Shown here in pieces: positions 1,335 to 11,752 of a DNA stretch of 23,975 nt. Under the pieces are notes generated by a model, which was given only the letters and a program-made list of their open reading frames with translations, was not told the origin of the DNA and did not search any database. The stretch comes from a virus. A program made the translations under genes and the position numbers. The number at the start of each line of letters is the position of its first letter. The stretch's first letter is position 1. The stretch is from IMG/VR virus record IMGVR_UViG_3300046169_000024, positions 1 through 23,975 of that record, one strand, 5' to 3'.

Positions 1335-2016
1335 TATGCCAATTTTCCTTTATGTAATTTAAGTGTTCCAAATCATGCGGTTTGGGTCTTCCACCACAAT
1401 CTACTATCTTGCATGACGATGGTAAGTATGTAGGAAATTTCCATTGACCAAATATCTTCTCACCGAGATGAAACTTTAAGTTTAATTTTATATTCTTATT
1501 CTTTTCGTCCATGTAGAATATTTTACTATCTTTTAACAAACGACCTGTCCAAACTTGATCGCCCCCATCGTAATCAAATAATCTCCAAGAGTCTTGTTGA
1601 AAAACATCCCAGACATCTTGCATGTTACCCTTCTTTAGAACCATCATAGATGAACTATACTTATTATTCTTCCAAAGTATAGCATCTGACACGACAGCGT
1701 TCTTGTATTTATCTAACGACTTAACTGCACGTTCTATGTCTTTATCAAAGTTCTTTATTAATACAGTATCAATATCTAGGTATAACGCAAAGTCTTCTTC
1801 GTAGAAAGAATCGTATACTTTCATCTTGTTCCACCAACCCTTCTTCTTGAAAGGTGGTTCTACTGGTGTGGCGATATCAGAGATCTCATCTGGACGATCA
1901 GTAATACAATATGCATTAACATCAAACTCTGTCAATTCTGTGAATCGTTTGATAATCTTACGTGCATACTCCATAGGGTAGGCATCGGTACATACTGTAA
2001 TAAATGCAATCTTCAT
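1327..2016 (-). CDS. GT8-like glycosyltransferase (229 aa)
   Basis: A GT-A-type glycosyltransferase, judged from an N-terminal beta strand (MKIAFITVCTDAYP) and a hydrophobic strand ending in a DxD metal-binding motif (ALYLDIDTVLI, Asp81-Ile-Asp83). A later GDQVW segment resembles the acceptor-side acid of GT8 and GT32 enzymes. It would transfer a sugar from a nucleotide-sugar in the cytoplasm; donor and acceptor are unknown. Start and stop overlap both neighbours (ATGA at 2013-2016, 8 bases with the SNase gene), so it belongs to the same run of co-transcribed glycosyltransferases. Confidence 0.8.
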   Translation of the reverse strand: MKIAFITVCTDAYPMEYARKIIKRFTELTEFDVNAYCITDRPDEISDIATPVEPPFKKKGWWNKMKVYDSFYEEDFALYLDIDTVLIKNFDKDIERAVKSLDKYKNAVVSDAILWKNNKYSSSMMVLKKGNMQDVWDVFQQDSWRLFDYDGGDQVWTGRLLKDSKIFYMDEKNKNIKLNLKFHLGEKIFGQWKFPTYLPSSCKIVDCGGRPKPHDLEHLNYIKENWHNV

Positions 2017-2666
2017 GCTTTGATCAACTCTATACCTTTCTTGTAATTATGTTTTGCGATACAACCAGCTTCTTCTTGAATGGTACTGAACGAATCGTCT
2101 ACACTCACAGGCCAAGGATAGAACTCCTGTAACCAAGGGAAGGTGTCTGTGTGTAAGTATACATCGGTCGGACAACTGTGATCTGACACATTGTCTAATA
2201 GTTTCTTAGCACCAGTCGGATTTACGATATAGGCATGTGCGCCACCGAAGTACCTCTTTTGTATTAGAGGTTGAACACCCCAAGTTTGTGGTGTATTGAA
2301 TCTACCATAACTGGGTTTACCAATGGTGACACACTTGTCGAACGGTATATAGGGAACACTGTTAGTGAATACCGCATCATGTTCTAGAATCATCACGTCA
2401 CATTTGTTTAATATGGAATATTTCCATAGAGACATATGTGATAGGAAACACGCCAATGCATTCTCTGGTCTAGACCACTTTGACGAGAACTGATCAATGT
2501 TTAGTTCAGCACTCTCTACCATATCCATAAACCCTTCGGATCTCGGAGTGACAGCGTGATACTTCTCTACGACATGACCAACCTTTTTACCAGACTCAAT
2601 ACACCTCTCCGCAACTTTAACGGATTGTGGATTGTCCATGATTGTGATTACAAAAGATTTCATCAT
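2013..2666 (-). CDS. GT25-like glycosyltransferase (217 aa)
   Basis: It resembles the LPS glycosyltransferase family 25. FLSHMSLWKYSI (residues 74-85) matches the conserved LSH-x-W helix, VMILEHDAVF (91-100) is the strand with the acidic metal site (here Glu-His-Asp rather than Glu-Asp-Asp), and GGAHAYIVNPTGAKKLL is the conserved glycine-rich acceptor segment. Length is close to the family norm. It is paralogous in layout to the next upstream gene and to the N-terminal half of the 512-aa protein at 9265-10803. Expected to add a hexose to an unknown acceptor. Confidence 0.8.
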   Translation of the reverse strand: MMKSFVITIMDNPQSVKVAERCIESGKKVGHVVEKYHAVTPRSEGFMDMVESAELNIDQFSSKWSRPENALACFLSHMSLWKYSILNKCDVMILEHDAVFTNSVPYIPFDKCVTIGKPSYGRFNTPQTWGVQPLIQKRYFGGAHAYIVNPTGAKKLLDNVSDHSCPTDVYLHTDTFPWLQEFYPWPVSVDDSFSTIQEEAGCIAKHNYKKGIELIKA

Positions 2667-3376
2667 CCTTGGGTACTCGACTCAACACCTTGCACTTTGG
2701 TATAGTAAGGATATACAACACGAAGAGACAAAAAGTTTGCACTACACAAGAACGCATCATTAGGCCACATACCGACTTCCTTGATCTTGTTTAAGAACTC
2801 TTTTGCCATATGGGGTTCTACCCAATACGCAGAACCTCCTGCCAAACCCTGTGCATAATTTGGGCCTGTAGGATCATTAACATAAGGAGCAAACTTTACA
2901 GAATTACTCTTGGAAACTTCTTCGTGGAATACTTGCGCTCTCCGTGTTGCGCCACGAGGATCGCACAAACCGACACAACTTAAACCCTTACGCATACCAG
3001 TAAACTTACGTGTGAGTAACGCATCACTCTCAAAGATAACTGCGGCCTGATCGTTCATAATAATCTGTTCCCACGCTCTCATGTGGGACACCGCACAAGC
3101 AATAACCTTCAACTGGTTCTTTGCACCATATACATGTTTATAGATTCCTGTCTGAAGATCCAATCCTTCTTCATCATGAGTCACAGGCCAGTTCCATCTC
3201 CAGTCTCTATGATCAAAACAGACCATGTCCTTTAGATCTTGTTCCATCGTCTCTGGTGTAGATGCACGGAGTATCTCTGGTTTCAATTCACTTTCAGTGT
3301 CCTTGATACTCTTTTTCAGTCGTTTAACTGCATCTTGTTGTTGACCTTCAACATTAATAATATAGGAGTCTGTCAT
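2663..3376 (-). CDS. GT25-like glycosyltransferase (237 aa)
   Basis: A second GT25-type protein with the CAVSHMRAWEQI helix (residues about 94-105), AAVIFESDALL (111-121, Glu-Ser-Asp metal site), GGSAYWVEPHMAKEFL, and a C-terminal VEPHM...NDAF...TKVQGVESS tail. The ATG at 3376 is preferred over a TTG nine bases upstream that would overlap the GroES gene, because the ATG lies one base after the GroES stop. It overlaps the next gene by ATGA. Acceptor and donor are not identifiable from sequence. Confidence 0.8.
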   Translation of the reverse strand: MTDSYIINVEGQQQDAVKRLKKSIKDTESELKPEILRASTPETMEQDLKDMVCFDHRDWRWNWPVTHDEEGLDLQTGIYKHVYGAKNQLKVIACAVSHMRAWEQIIMNDQAAVIFESDALLTRKFTGMRKGLSCVGLCDPRGATRRAQVFHEEVSKSNSVKFAPYVNDPTGPNYAQGLAGGSAYWVEPHMAKEFLNKIKEVGMWPNDAFLCSANFLSLRVVYPYYTKVQGVESSTQG

Positions 3377-3377
3377 T

Positions 3378-3641
3378 TTATGCAATCAACTTTACGTGTT
3401 CCACATCAACAACCGCACACTTTAGACCGTCTAACTCAACCGCCATTGCCTTTGACCAGTCTAGATAGATCTTGTCCTTTGGCGCCAGTGCAGCTGCAAT
3501 GACTTCCTCACCATCACCTGTTGCGATAACTATTGCTGGTTTGGTTCCTGTCGCAATATCACCAGACAAGATAATACCACCAGAGGTAGTCTCGTCTGCT
3601 TTGTGTTCACTCACTAATACATTATTACCTAATACTCTCAT
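3378..3641 (-). CDS. groES: GroES-like co-chaperonin (87 aa)
   Basis: An 87-residue beta-rich protein with the Cpn10 layout. It starts MRVLGNNVLVSEH, has a mobile-loop region with TTSGGIILSGD (equivalent to the GroEL-binding SAGGIVLTG loop of GroES), then ATGDGEE and a C-terminal strand ending VEHVKLIA. T4-like phages use such proteins (T4 gp31 is the classical case) to adapt host GroEL for folding the capsid protein. It lies between a lipase and glycosyltransferase genes and is not next to a groEL, so it must act with the host chaperonin. The identification is good; pairing with capsid folding is inference. Confidence 0.85.
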   Translation of the reverse strand: MRVLGNNVLVSEHKADETTSGGIILSGDIATGTKPAIVIATGDGEEVIAAALAPKDKIYLDWSKAMAVELDGLKCAVVDVEHVKLIA

Positions 3642-3647
3642 AATATC

Positions 3648-4355
3648 CTAAACCTTGTTTGTGTATCGAACATAGTAAACCATACTATGATCATATGCGC
3701 CGTCAAACGGCATACCTTTAGCGAACGCTTTACCACGTCCTCTCCAACCATCCTTGAATCTTTGCCAGTATGTCATCTTACGAATGTTACCGTAGTAGTT
3801 GATATACACAAGTTCTCCATGATGTTTGTAACCCATCAGTACCAACGGAACACTAGTCACGATGTCATTGTTATTTACACATCTCGTATGTGGTACTTTT
3901 AGGTTCTTAACAAAAGAACACGTACCCACACGTGGACTACCGAATGTATACAGATGTTTTGTCTGTGGTAATCGTGAAGCGCAGATTGTTGCCATTGCAG
4001 CACCTAACGAATGTCCACAGATATACAGATCTAACTTACTGTACTTGTTGACGTATTGTAACACATCTTCCCATACTTTGTCAAGTTCTGTTTTAAATCC
4101 AGAGTGTACCCATCCGTCAGTCTCACTCCGTGATGGCCATGCCTTCAGGTCAGCAAGGATATCAGATATCTCTGATGGTTCAGTACCACGGAAACAAACT
4201 GCCATACTCTCCTTGTTACGTACCAGATGAACTTGTGCGCCATCTATATCAACAAGTTTGTGTGATGTGAATCCGAGTTTCTTAAACCCCTTCTTTGCTT
4301 CTTTACTATCAAGATACGCAAGTTGCGCCATCTCTGCTGATTTACCGATGTTCAT
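3648..4355 (-). CDS. Class 3 lipase-like alpha/beta hydrolase (235 aa)
   Basis: A clear lipase_3 fold. MAVCFRGTEP (51-60) is the conserved oxyanion strand, YICGHSLGAA (111-120) carries nucleophile Ser116, FGSPRVG follows at 138-144, Asp164 sits in NNNDIVTSVP, and His223 in YDHSMVYYV completes the Ser-Asp-His triad. No signal peptide or membrane segment is seen, so the enzyme is predicted to be cytoplasmic or virion-borne. The start at 4355 follows AGAGGAAA at good spacing and clears the upstream gene by 13 bases; a longer frame to 4421 would overlap it. Lipid or ester hydrolysis is expected; the target (host membrane lipid, polyhydroxyalkanoate, acylated glycan) is unknown. Confidence 0.85.
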   Translation of the reverse strand: MNIGKSAEMAQLAYLDSKEAKKGFKKLGFTSHKLVDIDGAQVHLVRNKESMAVCFRGTEPSEISDILADLKAWPSRSETDGWVHSGFKTELDKVWEDVLQYVNKYSKLDLYICGHSLGAAMATICASRLPQTKHLYTFGSPRVGTCSFVKNLKVPHTRCVNNNDIVTSVPLVLMGYKHHGELVYINYYGNIRKMTYWQRFKDGWRGRGKAFAKGMPFDGAYDHSMVYYVRYTNKV

Positions 4356-4368
4356 TACTTTTCCTCTT

Positions 4369-5073
4369 TTAATGACTTTTATATAGGTTATAGCGTCGAG
4401 CAATAGTTGCTCCACCTTCATATGGTACGTGTGTTAAATTATTAGGGCGACATAGGACTTGCCAGTATCCCCACTCTGCTGGTAATAACTTTTTTGATCT
4501 ATGTAGTTCGTGAACCAACTGTGGATCAAAATGATCTTTGTGGTGGAATATCATCTGGTCTGGTAAAAAATCTGTAGCTCTTCTTGGCACTTGACGTTTA
4601 AGATTGCCTTGAAGCCCAGATTTGCCAGTCATAAAACCTATAGGTTTTTTTTCGCATTTTCTCAATAAACTACTAAAATCAATCTTAGTATCTATTTGGG
4701 TATCCCATCGTAAACGGATAAAAGTGTCGTAACCATCACTGACCTTCTCATAAAGATCCGCATACCCTATTATTTGTTTTGATGAGTTCTGATAATTTTT
4801 ATGCCCCCTAAGAGTTTCTCGTCTGTTCTTTAAATCTAGATTGCAGTTTATTGTATCAGGAGTTTTTGTATCTAAAAGAGTATCGTAATGAATTATAGGT
4901 TCGGGACACGATTCTACTTTTATTGATTTTGGTATATCTGAAAGATACTCTTCCCAAGTATGAAAATACACATCCGTATCAGGAAAAACTTCTTCTATAT
5001 TATCGATAAGTTCTCCTAACGTTTGAACCGAAGGTTGGTATAGACCATTTACTAATATTGCTGTCTTCATCAC
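4369..5073 (-). CDS. Putative glycan-biosynthesis protein, tandem paralog 1 (234 aa)
   Basis: It belongs to an unnamed family represented three times in this window. Shared landmarks are an N-terminal TAILVNG strand, FPDTDVYFHTW (30-40), IIGYADLYEKVSDGYDTFIRLRWDT (split here: GY-x-L, then RLRWD at 120-124) and a C-terminal AEWGYWQVL...YEGGA block. The xRxRWD strand looks like an acidic metal site of a GT-A glycosyltransferase, and the layout faintly recalls WavE-type LPS synthesis proteins. The adjacent gene at 5070-5819 has the same landmarks in the same order. The sugar-transfer role is inferred from fold-like features and from the surrounding glycosyltransferases. Confidence 0.75.
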   Translation of the reverse strand: MMKTAILVNGLYQPSVQTLGELIDNIEEVFPDTDVYFHTWEEYLSDIPKSIKVESCPEPIIHYDTLLDTKTPDTINCNLDLKNRRETLRGHKNYQNSSKQIIGYADLYEKVSDGYDTFIRLRWDTQIDTKIDFSSLLRKCEKKPIGFMTGKSGLQGNLKRQVPRRATDFLPDQMIFHHKDHFDPQLVHELHRSKKLLPAEWGYWQVLCRPNNLTHVPYEGGATIARRYNLYKSH

Positions 5074-5819
5074 ATATACTTCTCAATGTGTGCGCCACCG
5101 TAATAACACACATGATTATCTTTATACGGTTCACTTAGTATCTGATACCATCCCCACTCTGCATTTTTCAACTGTTTGTTGTTATGTAAATTCCAAACCC
5201 TTTTAGAATCCCATAGTTTTCTAGGGTGGATTATCAATGGATCCATTAGATAGTACGCCCAGTCTTGAGTTGTCATAACTGGATCATCACTATTTTCCGC
5301 ACGATCAACTGGAGGATAATACCTAGGCAACTCTACCATCTTGTTAACGCCATGTTTCCAACGAGTGTCTCTACAACCAAACCCCATCGCAACATTCTCT
5401 TTATACGATCTTCCAATTAAACCTAACCAGTCAATCGATTCATCTAATGATGTATAAGTGTCAAAACGCATACGAACACACATATCATATTCGTCACTAA
5501 TTTCATTCAAAAGTTTGTCATAACCCAAAATCTGCATTGTTCTATATTGAGACTGTTTCTTTGAAGTGGAATTTGATCCGTTCTCCATGTTTTTTTTATA
5601 ATTTATATTTTTAAAAGTAGGGTATGGTTCAGTATCTAAAGTTGGATGATAATCTATAGATGGTTGATCATGTACAAAGTCCACAATATCATCATTGCCT
5701 TCGCCTGACCAAGTAGAGGTGAACACATCAGCATCAGGAAAAGCGTCACGTACTCTTAGTATGTTTTGCTCCCACTTTCCTCTGACTTGACCAGATACCA
5801 GTATGGCAATTTTCACCAT
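5070..5819 (-). CDS. Putative glycan-biosynthesis protein, tandem paralog 2 (249 aa)
   Basis: Paralog of the following gene, with AILVSGQ at 5-11, FPDADVFTSTW (27-37), ILGYDKLLNEISDEYD (97-112), VRMRFDTYTS (115-124) and AEWGWYQIL...YYGGAHIEKY near the end. Between the motifs the two proteins have drifted a great deal, so the duplication is old or they arrived separately. The stop overlaps the next ATG by ATGA, and the start overlaps the methyltransferase stop (TAATG). A glycosyltransferase-like function is inferred, not demonstrated. Confidence 0.75.
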   Translation of the reverse strand: MVKIAILVSGQVRGKWEQNILRVRDAFPDADVFTSTWSGEGNDDIVDFVHDQPSIDYHPTLDTEPYPTFKNINYKKNMENGSNSTSKKQSQYRTMQILGYDKLLNEISDEYDMCVRMRFDTYTSLDESIDWLGLIGRSYKENVAMGFGCRDTRWKHGVNKMVELPRYYPPVDRAENSDDPVMTTQDWAYYLMDPLIIHPRKLWDSKRVWNLHNNKQLKNAEWGWYQILSEPYKDNHVCYYGGAHIEKYM

Positions 5820-6487
5820 TATCTCCTAAAATGTATAAATGTTTTCATGCTGTCAGCATCTATATTTGTTTTAGAAACAACCTTATCCATAGGCAGTAGT
5901 TCAGACGGAACGCATTTATATCCGAAACAACCTTCGTCCCAGTATTTGGCACCTTCAGGCAATTTCTCTCTAGTACCAAATCTTTTTGTTGGATCGTCAA
6001 CCATATAGGCTTCTCTTTTAGGAATACGAGTTTCGTAACCTTGGTCTGTCGTAGAATGCATATAGAAAACATTTTCGAAATGATCAAACACATTTTCAAA
6101 GAACCATTTAATATCTTCGTCAAACCAATGAATCAGAACGTCCTTGATGACTAGTGCATCAACATCTTCATTTGGAATAGTTTTTAACTTGGCATATTCA
6201 AATCTAAGTTTGGGATACTTCTTGCGAAGTTTGTCAACAGCACCAACGTGGGCATCATATCCTACGTACTCAATTCCAGTCTCAGACCAGTCGATATTAC
6301 CATTATATGTTTGATGATTACCGCAACCATAATCAACAAATGATTTCACATCATTATCCGTCATTGTTTTTAGTAAGTGTTTGCAGTAATCTTCATTAAA
6401 CTTGGGATAAGAACCCCTTCCACATGCTTGTTCAAATTTTAATTTATCGTACCATGCCCCGATTCCAGACTCGTATCCAATTTTCAT
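5819..6487 (-). CDS. SAM-dependent methyltransferase-like protein (222 aa)
   Basis: Motif I of class I methyltransferases is visible as SFVDYGCGNHQTY (residues 49-61). It is followed by VGYDAHVGAVDKLRKKYP (acidic end of strand 2), and ALVIKDVLIHWFDED as the motif IV/post-motif region. The N-terminus (MKIGYESGIGAWYD) precedes the fold without a signal peptide. A ribosome-binding AAAGGAT lies just upstream of the ATG. It probably methylates a sugar or small molecule, since it sits between nucleotide-sugar and glycosyltransferase genes, but protein or nucleic acid substrates cannot be excluded. Confidence 0.75.
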   Translation of the reverse strand: MKIGYESGIGAWYDKLKFEQACGRGSYPKFNEDYCKHLLKTMTDNDVKSFVDYGCGNHQTYNGNIDWSETGIEYVGYDAHVGAVDKLRKKYPKLRFEYAKLKTIPNEDVDALVIKDVLIHWFDEDIKWFFENVFDHFENVFYMHSTTDQGYETRIPKREAYMVDDPTKRFGTREKLPEGAKYWDEGCFGYKCVPSELLPMDKVVSKTNIDADSMKTFIHFRR

Positions 6488-6491
6488 AATT

Positions 6492-7841
6492 TTATCCTTT
6501 AAAGTTTTCTAGAAAGTATGTTAGATCTTCGGGTGTACCGAGACCCCACATCTTAGATGCATTGTGAGTGTAGATTCTTTTCTCACCCTCTATCGCTTGG
6601 TTGAATACTGGGCAAACATAGAACTCATTATTTACTCGGACATCTCTTTCGATCATCTGTTCTGCGTAGTGAACAAAATCCTTACCGTTCTTCCAGTAGT
6701 AATAACCAACAGTTGCAAGGTTACTGATAGGATTCTTCTCTGCCACTTCAGTAACACAACCAGACTCATCTATCTTAGCAAAAGACCATTTTGGGTGTGT
6801 CGCCTCAAAGGTGACGATACCACCGTCAGCATCTTTCTCATTCATCGCATACATGAACTCCATGACATCCCACTCAACATACTGATCAGAGTTTGCGAAG
6901 AACAACGGATTATCATTGTCGATATACTCTTTCGCAAGAAGTGCGGTACATGCAGCTCCTTCAGTTATACTATCGACCTCAACAATCTTACAGTCAGGCG
7001 CAATTAGATTCAACATGGTGTCGAGGTTATATTGTTCACGATGTTCTTTCTGTACAACAAAAATATAGTTCGCATCGAAACCAAGATTCTCCACAACAGT
7101 TTGAATCATTGGTTTACCATTGACATCGATCAACGGTTTGGGGAAGGTGTAACCCGCTTCTGCGAATCTACTTCCAGCGCCTGCCATAGGAATAAGAACA
7201 TTGAGTTTCTCGTTCTTCCACTTTTTCATAATAGGTTTACCTTCGATTTTTGGAATGATATTATCTATAGTTGTTTTATATGGGTTATCTACACGAATGT
7301 AGTTTGCCCGTGATCTCTGTGCGGACAACAATCCAGGCGGACTGTCTTCTACAATTATGGTCTCTTCAGGTAACACTCCCATCATTGACATCGCTTTCCA
7401 ATAGATCTCAGGATGAGGTTTGCTGTTCTTCACGTCCTCGTTAGAAAGGATCACCGAACAGTGTTTTATGAGTTTAGCTTGTGCGAGTGACGTAACAACT
7501 GTTCGTCTAATAGAGTTAGAACACACACCAATCTTATAACCTTGATCTTCTAGTTCTTGGAACAGATCACAAATATGTTCTATGGGTTCTTGGTTTGATA
7601 ATAAGTCTCTGGTTATCTCTTGTTTCTTCTCACTAATCTCGGAATGAAGTGTTGGGTCTAGTCCTTTTCTTTTGGTCAACATCTCTAACTTCTGTAGAGT
7701 CTTTAGACCATCATAGGTCGCTAGATGTTCTTCTTCCGTGATTGCGTACTCAGGGCCTAATGCCTCATTCAACGCAACGAAGTGTATATTCTTCGCATCA
7801 ATTAAAACACCGTCTAAATCAAAAAGGACTAACTTTATCAC
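6492..7841 (-). CDS. HAD phosphatase fused to sugar-phosphate nucleotidyltransferase (449 aa)
   Basis: Two domains. Residues 1 to about 200 are a beta-phosphoglucomutase-like HAD phosphatase: FDLDGVL with Asp8 and Asp10, CSNS as motif II, SKPHPEIY as motif III and IVEDSPPG as motif IV. Residues about 212-449 are a nucleotidyltransferase with IPMAGAGSRFAEAG...FPKPLI, the signature G-x-G-x-R and K-P of sugar-1-phosphate NTP transferases, then FFANSDQYV as the metal-binding Asp strand. The GTG start at 7841 overlaps the upstream TAG (TAGTG) and places the HAD motif at the usual distance; a TTG at 7853 is less likely. Dephosphorylating then activating a sugar would supply the neighbouring glycosyltransferases, as GmhB and HddC do in GDP-heptose synthesis; the analogy is inference. 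Confidence 0.85.
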   Translation of the reverse strand: MIKLVLFDLDGVLIDAKNIHFVALNEALGPEYAITEEEHLATYDGLKTLQKLEMLTKRKGLDPTLHSEISEKKQEITRDLLSNQEPIEHICDLFQELEDQGYKIGVCSNSIRRTVVTSLAQAKLIKHCSVILSNEDVKNSKPHPEIYWKAMSMMGVLPEETIIVEDSPPGLLSAQRSRANYIRVDNPYKTTIDNIIPKIEGKPIMKKWKNEKLNVLIPMAGAGSRFAEAGYTFPKPLIDVNGKPMIQTVVENLGFDANYIFVVQKEHREQYNLDTMLNLIAPDCKIVEVDSITEGAACTALLAKEYIDNDNPLFFANSDQYVEWDVMEFMYAMNEKDADGGIVTFEATHPKWSFAKIDESGCVTEVAEKNPISNLATVGYYYWKNGKDFVHYAEQMIERDVRVNNEFYVCPVFNQAIEGEKRIYTHNASKMWGLGTPEDLTYFLENFKG

Positions 7842-8432
7842 TATAGATCCCAACTAATTGTAGGACGTGAATCGCCCTTACCGTTCCAATGTATTCCACA
7901 CCCACATTCTTCAATGATGGGGATGATCGCCTTTAAATTCTTTACGCCTTCTTTGTCGCCGTTAAAACAGAAAGTCGATTCGTCTTGCATCTCTGGTGGG
8001 ATAACAAACAAACGAACCATCTCTAAGTAATCCTTCAGGTTGATTCTCTAGAATTGATTCCACACCATACTTCTTGGCGACTTCTAACATAGCGCCCTCT
8101 TGACCGTCCTCTTCTGCCCACTGCGCTTCTTCTAACTCTTCGAAGAAATCATCTTCTCCTTCTTCAAGTAACCCAGACTGCATAAACTCTTCGTCTATAT
8201 CGTACTGACAATCCTGTGAATGATTGAACAGTACCTTGGCGAGATCAACGTCTTTGTATTCAATCGGATTACCGTCTTTATCTTCACGGATTAAGTATCC
8301 GTCTTTGTCGTACTGCGGATCAAAGTAATCAGGGACATCCATCCACGCACATGTTTGGCAACAGTAGTGATTCCACCCTACGTACCAACCTTCTTCTTTG
8401 AGTCTTTCTTGTAATTTTCTAAAACCGTTCAT
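7841..8432 (-). CDS. Conserved acidic phage protein with Cys motifs, frame broken once (196 aa if repaired)
   Basis: The frame from ATG 8432 has a Cys-rich patch (HYCCQTCAW, residues 22-30), an acidic centre (EEGEDDFFEELEEAQWAEED) and then runs to a premature stop at 7962. Near 8030 a one-base skip (GAA GGA then TAC instead of TTA) moves it into a frame that is open to 7841. That frame reads IPPEMQDEST, FCFNGDKEGVKN and ECGCGIHWNGKGDSR, clearly coding in composition and ending in a TAG that overlaps the next start. I recall a phage family with this C-terminal sequence; function unknown. The sigma70-type promoter at 8459-8487 and a GAGAGGA ribosome site precede it. Confidence 0.75.
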
Positions 8433-8458
8433 AATATATTCCTCTCATACTGATGTGC

Positions 8459-8487
8459 ATTATAACACATTAACTGTCATTTGTCAA
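8459..8487 (-). promoter_or_regulatory. Perfect sigma70-type promoter
   Basis: On the minus strand TTGACA (8482-8487) and TATAAT (8459-8464) are separated by exactly 17 bases, a full consensus match. The -35 box overlaps the end of the upstream glycosyltransferase gene, and transcription would start about 8452 and read into the gene at 8432. The spacer (begins AATGA, ends GTGT) lacks the GCCCA motif of the 13.6-21 kb promoters but resembles the spacer at 12157-12185. Confidence 0.8.
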
Positions 8488-9268
8488 TCTGTTTCATCAG
8501 AGACTCGACATCCTCACCTTTTTTGGGAAGTAAGTCTTTCAGGAAAAAGTGTACAAAGTGACACTCCTTGATGTTATTGACTGCACTAAACAATCCATTC
8601 CATTTGCCACTCAAATGTTTAGTAGGTATTTTATATTTCTTCAGAAAGAAGTTCAATAGTGTTTGATCGGTACTCCACTTCCACGCACCTATGCCGTCAA
8701 CGAAGTCTTTGAACTCCGACCGTTGGATAAACTGTTTGCCTGTCTGACCTTTTAGGAATGGTTTAAACTTCTCGGTATTGATAACAATCATGCCCATGTT
8801 GAAGAACTCGAATCCTAATTGGTTTGGTTTGAAGTCTAGTTTCTGAGAATGCAGATTGTTGTATTGCATTGCACTATAGTTTCTAATCTTCTGAGTATAG
8901 GCGGGAGTGATATCCATCTCACGTTCAGCGACAGCTCCAAACGCACAGTTGCACGTAAAGTCTTCCAGAATATTTGGCGCATCCTCACGAATGTAGATGT
9001 CCGCATCAACAATCAACAGACGATCATAACCGTCCATCATGTCGAACGCATTCTCTTTCTCGTAGATAGGTAGGAACCCACCGTGTTTCTGCCAACTCTC
9101 GGTAGAACGATTACTGGTAAACGGATCAGGACGAATCATCATCTTGGGAGTGGTCTGGACATGGTGATCGAATCCATGTTTCTCACAATACTGTTTGACA
9201 CTCTCTATACAATGTTTATATAGTTTAGATGGTTTACCCACAGCTACTTGATATACTAAAGTTTTCAT
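8477..9268 (-). CDS. GT-A glycosyltransferase with DAD motif (263 aa)
   Basis: The N-terminal strand MKTLVYQVAVG, a helix with HCIESVKQYCEKHG, and YDRLLIVDADIYIRED (residues 81-96, Asp88-Ala-Asp90 metal site) mark a GT8/GT32-like enzyme. NMGMIVINTEKF and STDQTLLN correspond to the later acceptor and catalytic regions in such enzymes. It ends LMKQIDK. Its ATG overlaps the upstream stop (ATGA at 9265-9268). It should transfer a sugar from an NDP- or UDP-sugar to an unknown acceptor. The 3' end holds the -35 box of the promoter at 8459-8487. Confidence 0.8.
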   Translation of the reverse strand: MKTLVYQVAVGKPSKLYKHCIESVKQYCEKHGFDHHVQTTPKMMIRPDPFTSNRSTESWQKHGGFLPIYEKENAFDMMDGYDRLLIVDADIYIREDAPNILEDFTCNCAFGAVAEREMDITPAYTQKIRNYSAMQYNNLHSQKLDFKPNQLGFEFFNMGMIVINTEKFKPFLKGQTGKQFIQRSEFKDFVDGIGAWKWSTDQTLLNFFLKKYKIPTKHLSGKWNGLFSAVNNIKECHFVHFFLKDLLPKKGEDVESLMKQIDK

Positions 9269-10803
9269 AATTTACCCAATTTTCTATATGTTTCATACCT
9301 GTGATCTATATCAGGTATATCACTAACCAACCCATCAATATTAATTCGAGATCTCTTTTGACACAACATGTTATACCATGTTTGTCTACGAGACATTGAT
9401 TCGTCACTATTATATAGTTCAGAGATATCTAAACCATTTAAGTCGCTTTCTTTAAATACAATCATGTAATCGTTTAGTTCATCATCTTTAGCATCGTTAT
9501 CGACACAGGAATGTCCTTCTTCAAAACGTTTCTTGAAGTCCACTCTCAAATCTCTAAATTTAACATAGTCTATATTATGATTACCATCATGATTAGGATT
9601 TGCCCTTACACCAACAACTTTGTTTTTAGCAAGGTCTATCAGGTTTAATATATTTTTATAATTTTCGAATGATCGATGAAATACTGTTTCCCATTTAATT
9701 CGTATGTAAAAGTCGTACTCCTTTGGCACATCTTTCCACTGAATTTCAAACATCTCATATTGTTTTGTTGATGGGTTAATAGGTTTATCGGGATCAATCT
9801 CTATTTTATTCAAATTAATGTATTGTTCTAAACGTTCATATACGAAATCGTCTTCTGGGTTATGCCACGTATTCCAATAAAGATCGCACCCCTTAAAGTA
9901 ACTCAAAAAGTCAAAGATATGTTCTACGCCAGATCTGGAGTGTAGATAGTTGGGTATATCGCCCCCTATTAATACAGCAACCTTTTGTTTAATTTTTTCG
10001 TGATTCCTATGGTCTATTGTACTTTTGCTCTTATCAACTTTGACTAACCAATTGCCACTGACTTCTCGGAAGTTCCGAAAATATTTTTTAAAACGATATA
10101 ACTCATGATCCGAGTCATACTTTTTAAGTTGATTGTGTTTGGGACGATCGTAGAACCCAACTTTACGATGTATACTAGGTTTCTTGAATATTGCCCATTG
10201 TATAACAGAGGTTAACCACCCATCAACGTTTACTAGGCACTTTACTACGTAACTAGCGTGATTGTCCATAAACCCACGTGGTCTTTTTCCTATCCCCAGA
10301 TTATATTGATTAAAAAATTTAAAAACTTCTTCTAGAATTTTTGGTGTGTAGTAAGAACATCTCAGTATCGTATTGTTGAAAGTTCTAAAATCCTTGTTTT
10401 TTATAAAATGTAGAATTTGGTCTGAATCAATTTCTGGGTTTAGTTCGCCATCATGTTCAACTACTATACAAGGGACATCCCTCTCTAAAATGACTTTCCA
10501 AACTTCAAAATGAGAATAGTAAACAGACTTCTCAGAATCACTAATTTTTCTCTGTAACCACTCACCACCACGTCTAAGTGGTCTCCAAGGCGACAGTGGT
10601 GGGTCGTATGGTCTGGTCATCAAAATTTCGTCACCGAAATTAAGGTAGTTAAACTGATCTAAAGTCTCAGGTGTTACCGCATCAAAGTACTCAACATCGA
10701 ACCCCAGTCTTTCCCAACTAATTCTAGCTTTAGAGGCAAGATATTCCGATATGTCATCGTCTTTATTTCTTATGATAATTACTGGTGGTTTATCGGTAGT
10801 CAT
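9265..10803 (-). CDS. Two-domain glycosyltransferase fusion (512 aa)
   Basis: The N-terminal half (1-270) has GT25-like marks: PPVIIIRNKDD, VYYSHFEVWKVIL (94-106) and CIVVEHDGELN (112-122, Glu-His-Asp). The C-terminal half (about 273-512) belongs to the same unnamed family as the genes at 4369-5073 and 5070-5819: VAVLIGGDI, CDLYWNTW (306-313), YDFYIRIKWETVF (363-375) and a terminal RRQTWYNML...GLVSD block. The fusion suggests two sequential transfer steps on one polypeptide. It overlaps the radical SAM gene by 14 bases at its start and the next gene by ATGA. AT-rich codon use here and in 4.4-6.5 kb looks stronger than in the radical SAM gene, hinting at separate acquisition. Confidence 0.8.
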   Translation of the reverse strand: MTTDKPPVIIIRNKDDDISEYLASKARISWERLGFDVEYFDAVTPETLDQFNYLNFGDEILMTRPYDPPLSPWRPLRRGGEWLQRKISDSEKSVYYSHFEVWKVILERDVPCIVVEHDGELNPEIDSDQILHFIKNKDFRTFNNTILRCSYYTPKILEEVFKFFNQYNLGIGKRPRGFMDNHASYVVKCLVNVDGWLTSVIQWAIFKKPSIHRKVGFYDRPKHNQLKKYDSDHELYRFKKYFRNFREVSGNWLVKVDKSKSTIDHRNHEKIKQKVAVLIGGDIPNYLHSRSGVEHIFDFLSYFKGCDLYWNTWHNPEDDFVYERLEQYINLNKIEIDPDKPINPSTKQYEMFEIQWKDVPKEYDFYIRIKWETVFHRSFENYKNILNLIDLAKNKVVGVRANPNHDGNHNIDYVKFRDLRVDFKKRFEEGHSCVDNDAKDDELNDYMIVFKESDLNGLDISELYNSDESMSRRQTWYNMLCQKRSRINIDGLVSDIPDIDHRYETYRKLGKL

Positions 10804-11752
10804 CTAGATCGAACTCAGTTCCGTGCATTTTCATTAAGTCACGTTCATGGTTAGTATACACTAAAACTTCAGGATCGTCAAGCAAAAAATCACATGATTT
10901 ACAATAATCAGGATAATCTCCTGTGGTATGTTGATCACGCAACTCGGTGTACTCAGGCCCATCCCATATCTCTTTGATAGTATTCTCGGACGTATGTCCC
11001 AGTACTGCCTCTTCGTCTTGTCCTAGTACTTGACAACAAGGTGCAACCGCACCAGTCTTACCATCAAGTCCGCCTGCCCGAATCACAACGTCAGGTGAGA
11101 ATGGACGACCACATGTCTTGGTCTCACCTTTACGTGTATTCTGTTTTGGGTCATAGACACCAGACCAGTTGTGCATCTTCCAGATCTCGGTCTTCACCCC
11201 CAGATCATTTACCAACTTAACATACGACTCAAGTTCATTATCTACATTGTCGTTGTCGGTAATCAGGTGATAGGTTGCCACAACACAATCAGAACCAGTC
11301 TCTTCTACGTACTCTTGCATCTCACGTATGTTCTTGGTGATTAGATCAAAGTTACCGCCTACGGTATTGTGCATCCATTCGTTGTACTTCTCCTTATTGT
11401 ATCCAATAAAAGAGAAACGATAGAAGTCCAGTCCAGCATCGACACACTTCTTCATGAAGTCGCCTTCCATACGGAAACCATTAGAGAACATGAAACACTT
11501 GGCGCCATACTTCTTAACGATCTTGATGTACTCAGGTAGATTACGATTCAGTGTAGGTTCACCACTCCCCTCTAGATTGACAACACGTAATCCATGTTGA
11601 GCGCAATCACGAACATTGTCTTCAAACTCCAACAAGTTCATCTTACGTAGGAAACGTTTGTCTCTACCACCAGTACGCACGTCCTGTGGACACATCGTAC
11701 AAGAGTAGTTACACCCTCCATTAATTTCGATTACCGCTCTATCGATTTTCAT
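10790..11752 (-). CDS. Radical SAM/SPASM-domain protein (320 aa)
   Basis: CNYSCTMC at residues 14-21 is the Cx3Cx2C motif that binds the SAM-cleaving 4Fe-4S cluster. NLEGSGEPTLN is the glycine-rich SAM-binding segment (GEP). The C-terminal region has about five further cysteines (near 214, 239, 240, 284, 287; YCKSC) matching a SPASM auxiliary-cluster domain. Members modify peptides, sugars or cofactors by radical chemistry; the closest type by appearance is the SPASM group of GT-associated proteins. Located inside a glycosyltransferase run and overlapping both neighbours by 14 bases, it probably acts on a sugar or glycan precursor. The precise reaction is unknown. Confidence 0.85.
   Translation of the reverse strand: MKIDRAVIEINGGCNYSCTMCPQDVRTGGRDKRFLRKMNLLEFEDNVRDCAQHGLRVVNLEGSGEPTLNRNLPEYIKIVKKYGAKCFMFSNGFRMEGDFMKKCVDAGLDFYRFSFIGYNKEKYNEWMHNTVGGNFDLITKNIREMQEYVEETGSDCVVATYHLITDNDNVDNELESYVKLVNDLGVKTEIWKMHNWSGVYDPKQNTRKGETKTCGRPFSPDVVIRAGGLDGKTGAVAPCCQVLGQDEEAVLGHTSENTIKEIWDGPEYTELRDQHTTGDYPDYCKSCDFLLDDPEVLVYTNHERDLMKMHGTEFDLDDYR

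Follow-up and report, generated by a model that had tools for sequence, protein, structure and literature searches.

The window analysed here is a whole IMG/VR virus record of 23,975 bases, a phage-genome fragment with minus-strand genes, among them those for PhoH, endolysin, ribonucleotide reductase and GroES. The nearest GenBank record to the ribonucleotide reductase is that of phage C48C1 (Kyanoviridae; 76.6%), with Methylophilales phages next; C48C1 and Melnitz-3 are both without a match to the protein family described below. Three open reading frames of this family are confirmed, every one on the minus strand: 4369–5073 (P0001, 233–234 residues, the start probably being an ATG one codon within the listed GTG), 5070–5819 (P0002, 249 residues) and 9265–10803 (P0003, 512 residues). 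Plus-strand coding at the same coordinates is ruled out by translations rich in stops. P0001 and P0002 are stand-alone members (class I), and P0003 is a fused protein in which a GT25 half (approximately residues 8–208; 10180–10782) precedes a family domain of class II (approximately residues 273–509; 9277–9987).

The surrounding genes, also on the minus strand, form a glycan cluster. The gene at 6492–7853 encodes a HAD phosphatase (beta-PGM-like) fused to a sugar-1-phosphate nucleotidyltransferase (RmlA/GlmU-like), the probable supplier of a donor sugar, with a methyltransferase-like gene (5819–6487; weak Pfam match) between it and P0002. The slot of P0003 is defined by a radical SAM/SPASM gene directly upstream (10790–11752) and a GT8-like gene directly downstream (8477–9268), the latter just under the Pfam cut-off, and two more GT25 genes occupy 2013–3385. 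A lipase class 3 gene (3648–4421; E=1.2e-21), 91–99% identical in related phages, is likewise found within the cluster.

The sequence-only reading had joined the three proteins by shared motifs, all of which are found at the positions described: AILVNG (residue 5), DVYFHTW (34) and RLRWD (120) in P0001; AILVSG (5), DVFTSTW (31) and RMRFD (116) in P0002; and AVLIGG (276), DLYWNTW (307) and RIKWE (368) in P0003. As that reading also had it, the terminal AEWG block is confined within the window to the two stand-alone copies (AEWGYWQ at 199 in P0001, AEWGWYQ at 220 in P0002), P0003 having RRQTWYN there; across the family the block is near-invariant. By sequence, P0001 and P0002 are clear paralogues (32% identity over 260 columns, E=1e-26). 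BLASTP of these two against P0003 stays at chance level (E=0.006 and 1.9), so that membership of the third protein was unproven by motif reading alone. A profile of 32 stand-alone members, from which all fused copies were excluded, matches residues 270–494 of P0003 at E=2.1e-24, compared with 0.025 for the best of 2000 shuffled C-halves, and its E-values for the remaining fused copies run from 1.6e-21 to 2.4e-53. These matches show the family to be real; the three window copies do share a profile, the opposite of the outcome that had been named as counting against it.

P0001 and P0003, each used alone to scan viral contigs, return no relatives. Relatives in L004–L006 were reached via P0002, and the intermediate copies there gave an alignment reaching 35 viral loci, with about 30 distinct viral members. 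What had been taken for a three-member family is a broad viral one with up to eight genes per phage contig, as on a related 144-kb contig, where four stand in tandem, two fused ones are likewise in tandem and two lie elsewhere (nine matches, two being halves of one gene). As far as seen, the family is restricted to marine tailed phages. A bacterial origin is rejected for the two 'bacterial' hits, L042 and L043, which are phage-like contigs binned to bacterial MAGs, likely as reference-genome contamination; 295 further genomes of one of the two MAG phyla hold no family member. On L042, filed under a Sphingobacteriales MAG, a gene for a RuBisCO large-subunit-like protein (5950–7026; Pfam RuBisCO_large E=4.7e-24, N-terminal domain 6.3e-5) directly precedes the nucleotidyltransferase/family pair. 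L043, a Flavobacteriaceae MAG contig, carries further genes at 6874–7993 and 8687–9457: 5′ of its family member two adjacent ones that by eye resemble transketolase halves, and 3′ of it one that is sulfotransferase-like (Sulfotransfer_2, E=6.7e-6). Beside a class II member of L038 are genes that look, by eye, like AMP-dependent ligases and a C-terminal methyltransferase-like part (5867–9097).

No family member scores above any cut-off in Pfam or NCBIfam, and P0001, P0002, P0003 and two intermediate members have no BLAST match in 50,697 GenBank phage records. The suggestion that the family is undescribed is not supported as it stands, since it is distantly related to the catalogued PHROG_13607. 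By hhalign the two are homologous, with a probability of 97.7% where none of 60 column-permuted controls exceeds 0.9%; they have a YDxxIRxRxD core in common, and the PHROG_13607 members of S-PRM1 and S-CAM9 abut the same HAD-nucleotidyltransferase gene. The best member of A1 matches PHROG_13607 at 2.6e-6; matches to single window proteins are weak and partial (E=0.001 and 0.0006), with none to P0003. Unlike the family, the PHROG_13607 cyanophage proteins do not conserve the AEWGW block, and they have no BLAST-level similarity to it. PHROG_13607 is catalogued with unknown function, its members being mostly 'hypothetical' and two annotated 'capsular polysaccharide biosynthesis protein'. L055, a distant relative of this set in one bacterial genome, has the same nucleotidyltransferase pairing.

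WavE (PF07507; LPS core synthesis) shares colinear G, STW, Q and RxD motifs with the family and in a bacterial genome likewise lies near HAD and nucleotidyltransferase genes; its hhalign score is 32.8, against at most 22.8 for 60 permuted controls, at a probability of only 30% and with three WavE sequences. Membership of PF07507 itself, at 14 bits (E=0.03) and under the 27-bit Pfam cut-off, is suggestive only. GT25 (PF01755), which forms the N-half of P0003 and separate genes of the cluster, does not extend to the new domain (no Pfam match; hhalign probability 0.1%). DUF7796 (PF25072; Pfam cut-off 27 bits) is matched by no window protein and by one cyanophage relative at 25.7 bits, and our literature search found no paper naming DUF7796 or PHROG_13607. 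The comparisons suggest a new branch within a known enzyme type, with a function predicted from sequence and model.

The AlphaFold2 model of P0002, built from a 34-row alignment, has a pLDDT of 89.6 and a pTM of 0.89. It has 13 PDB matches at E≤0.001: 12 are chains from GT-A glycosyltransferases or from complexes containing them, and the thirteenth is poxvirus H3, a protein to which a glycosyltransferase fold has been ascribed. The best folds are those of N-acetylglucosaminyltransferase I (GnT I), TarS, H3, B3GalT5/6, BoGT6a and chondroitin synthase, with a PBCV-1 glycosyltransferase at a slightly lower rank; in the viral fold library the top matches are glycosyltransferases or unnamed cyanophage and giant-virus proteins. 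The TM-scores are modest (0.3–0.5), which indicates a shared fold class and not close kinship, and a PDB sequence-profile search gave no significant match to a solved structure (one chance hit, E=0.088). Structure prediction and fold comparison, the checks proposed by the sequence-only reading, thus bear out a GT-A fold.

Seven residues are invariant in all 34 rows (G10, W37, Q96, Y111, D112, D193 and I196 in P0002 numbering), and R118, D120, E221, G223, W224, Q226 and H236 are near-invariant; P0002 carries the full signature, and that of P0001 is intact except for W224Y. The canonical DxD is absent, the position reading R-[WF]-D with the Asp in 33 of 34 rows, as is R118. Judged from the alignment, R-[WF]-D in place of the usual DxD is a new feature of the family; the DxD is not obligatory, and some GT-A families have lost it (eLife 54532). 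In the P0002 model, D120 lies between strands 113–117 and 121–123, and E221 lies at the N-end of helix 220–228. These positions appear to match the published placements of the DxD between strands and of the xED where a late helix begins (eLife 54532; PMC7948508), as compared by secondary structure, not coordinates. E221 is present in 31 and H236 in 28 of the 34 rows, their putative xED-like and C-His-like placement coming from secondary structure only.

Together, the GT-A fold matches of P0002 and the GT25 N-half of P0003 support the glycosyltransferase role proposed earlier. We think it likely that the family is a branch of GT-A glycosyltransferases with active stand-alone copies, a donor made upstream, a probable host-surface acceptor and a non-catalytic family domain in P0003. 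In P0001 and P0002 the Rossmann half would hold a nucleotide-sugar, with the metal/donor site where DxD normally lies, at the corner formed by R-[WF]-D120, E221 as an xED-like candidate base at the late-helix start and H236 as a C-His-like residue; the acceptor receiving the sugar during infection would be a glycan, probably a host surface polysaccharide. The product of the HAD/nucleotidyltransferase gene a short way upstream would probably supply the donor sugar. Of 22 representative loci, 18 have a gene for a sugar-1-phosphate nucleotidyltransferase on the same strand no more than about 1.75 kb upstream (in eight, no more than 45 bp), counts that do not represent independent events because the loci belong to related phages; it lies downstream of the family member in L039, and no such gene was found in the vicinity of the stand-alone copies L038, L041 and L034.

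On this arrangement, the cassette probably redecorates the host cell surface, a change that may serve to exclude competing phages; that marine myophages carry glycosyltransferases, and that infection may alter the host surface, are both ideas already established (PMC7029224, PMC9602691). Phage glycosyltransferases of other systems, e.g., T4, act on phage DNA or virion proteins (PMC7029224), and the targets here could be of that kind, but we regard this as unlikely: the cluster resembles the LPS-type glycosyltransferase/sugar-nucleotide clusters of pelagi- and cyanomyophages, and the scanned proteins of the window, itself a genome fragment, include none recognised as a base-modification enzyme.

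The GT25-like half of P0003 noted earlier is upheld by a Pfam match above the cut-off (PF01755; E=2.5e-6, 28.0 bits, cut-off 24), and it keeps the E-x-D metal-site motif (EHD, residues 116–118) common to the other GT25 genes of the window. The family domain carries the changes R118K, D120E, E221R, G223T, Q226N and H236R, a loss of six of the 14 near-invariant residues that is the largest among the 34 members, the others losing at most four; these substitutions suggest that it is probably non-catalytic. In the fused copy, from which the sequence-only reading had argued for a transferase role by association, activity of the family domain is probably lost. Fused counterparts in L006 (819–2552) and L004 (1507–3213) retain the full signature and would keep two potentially active domains. 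Such relatives, and the tandem-glycosyltransferase polymerases K4CP, LARGE1 and CHSY3 among the fold matches of P0003, are what one would expect if its family domain were a second working transferase whose chemistry has shifted, P0003 then being bifunctional and polymerase-like; with D120 and E221 among the positions lost, however, we hold this to be improbable.

We prefer to view P0003 as an apparently intact GT25 domain followed by a probably non-catalytic accessory domain, comparable with the second GT-A domain of LH3. The whole-protein model is moderate (pLDDT 71) and its top fold matches are chains of LH3/PLOD3, with no sequence relationship shown; LH3 has tandem GT-A-like domains, of which the first is active and the second inactive (PMC6082870). 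The alignment over the two domains has an rmsd of about 24 Å, so that the domain order alone is comparable. In a midpoint-rooted tree, the four fused domains cluster (95/82) and adjoin stand-alone copies. Among these neighbours, L041 lies between a radical SAM gene and GT8, with one short gene before GT8, and L031:860–1735 lies directly 5′ of GT8. Given these positions, the fusion probably arose by addition of GT25 to a gene already in the slot of P0003, a direction inferred under a midpoint root.

Still less probable is that the stand-alone proteins, although GT-A-folded, are nucleotidyltransferase-like or are sugar-binding accessories, partners of the neighbouring nucleotidyltransferase: fold searches do also return nucleotidyltransferases (the IspD-type 4kt7 for P0002, several for P0003), the DxD is replaced by R-x-D and the pairing with a real nucleotidyltransferase is tight, but glycosyltransferases top and dominate the fold matches, the family conserves an xED-like Glu and a C-terminal His, and a second nucleotidyltransferase would be redundant beside the separate, paired one.

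When the window is set against L006, identity reaches 100% for the nucleotidyltransferase, 99% for the radical SAM protein and a GT25 protein and 87% for GT8, compared with 76% for P0002 and 31% for P0003; the best match of P0001 there is a paralogue, at 31%. Against L004, the corresponding values are 99% for the nucleotidyltransferase, 89% for GT8, 52% for one GT25 gene and 32% for P0003. P0003 is thus 31–32% identical to its positional counterparts, whereas the adjoining genes are about 85–100% identical, and the natural reading of these sequence comparisons is that the sugar-transfer slot would be under diversifying pressure or recombination. As a tentative extension, more doubtful than the glycosyltransferase assignment itself, the family may stand apart as a GT-A family of its own at the CAZy level, in which the R-x-D donor site would either need no metal or rely on a single Asp; marine phages would have duplicated it, fused it to GT25 and made some copies into pseudo-enzyme domains, and its slot in an otherwise near-identical cluster would be a swap site for a host-surface sugar code.

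New here are the R-[WF]-D site, the nucleotidyltransferase pairing, the residue loss in the fused domain and the divergent fused gene. A set of 'hypothetical' phage proteins gains a likely function and is tied to an uncharacterised cyanophage family, and since the adjacent nucleotidyltransferase offers a specific candidate donor supplier, the pathway is testable. The divergent slot gene among conserved neighbours points to the place at which selection or recombination is at work in these phages, and a change of surface sugars during infection would be relevant to phage competition in the ocean.
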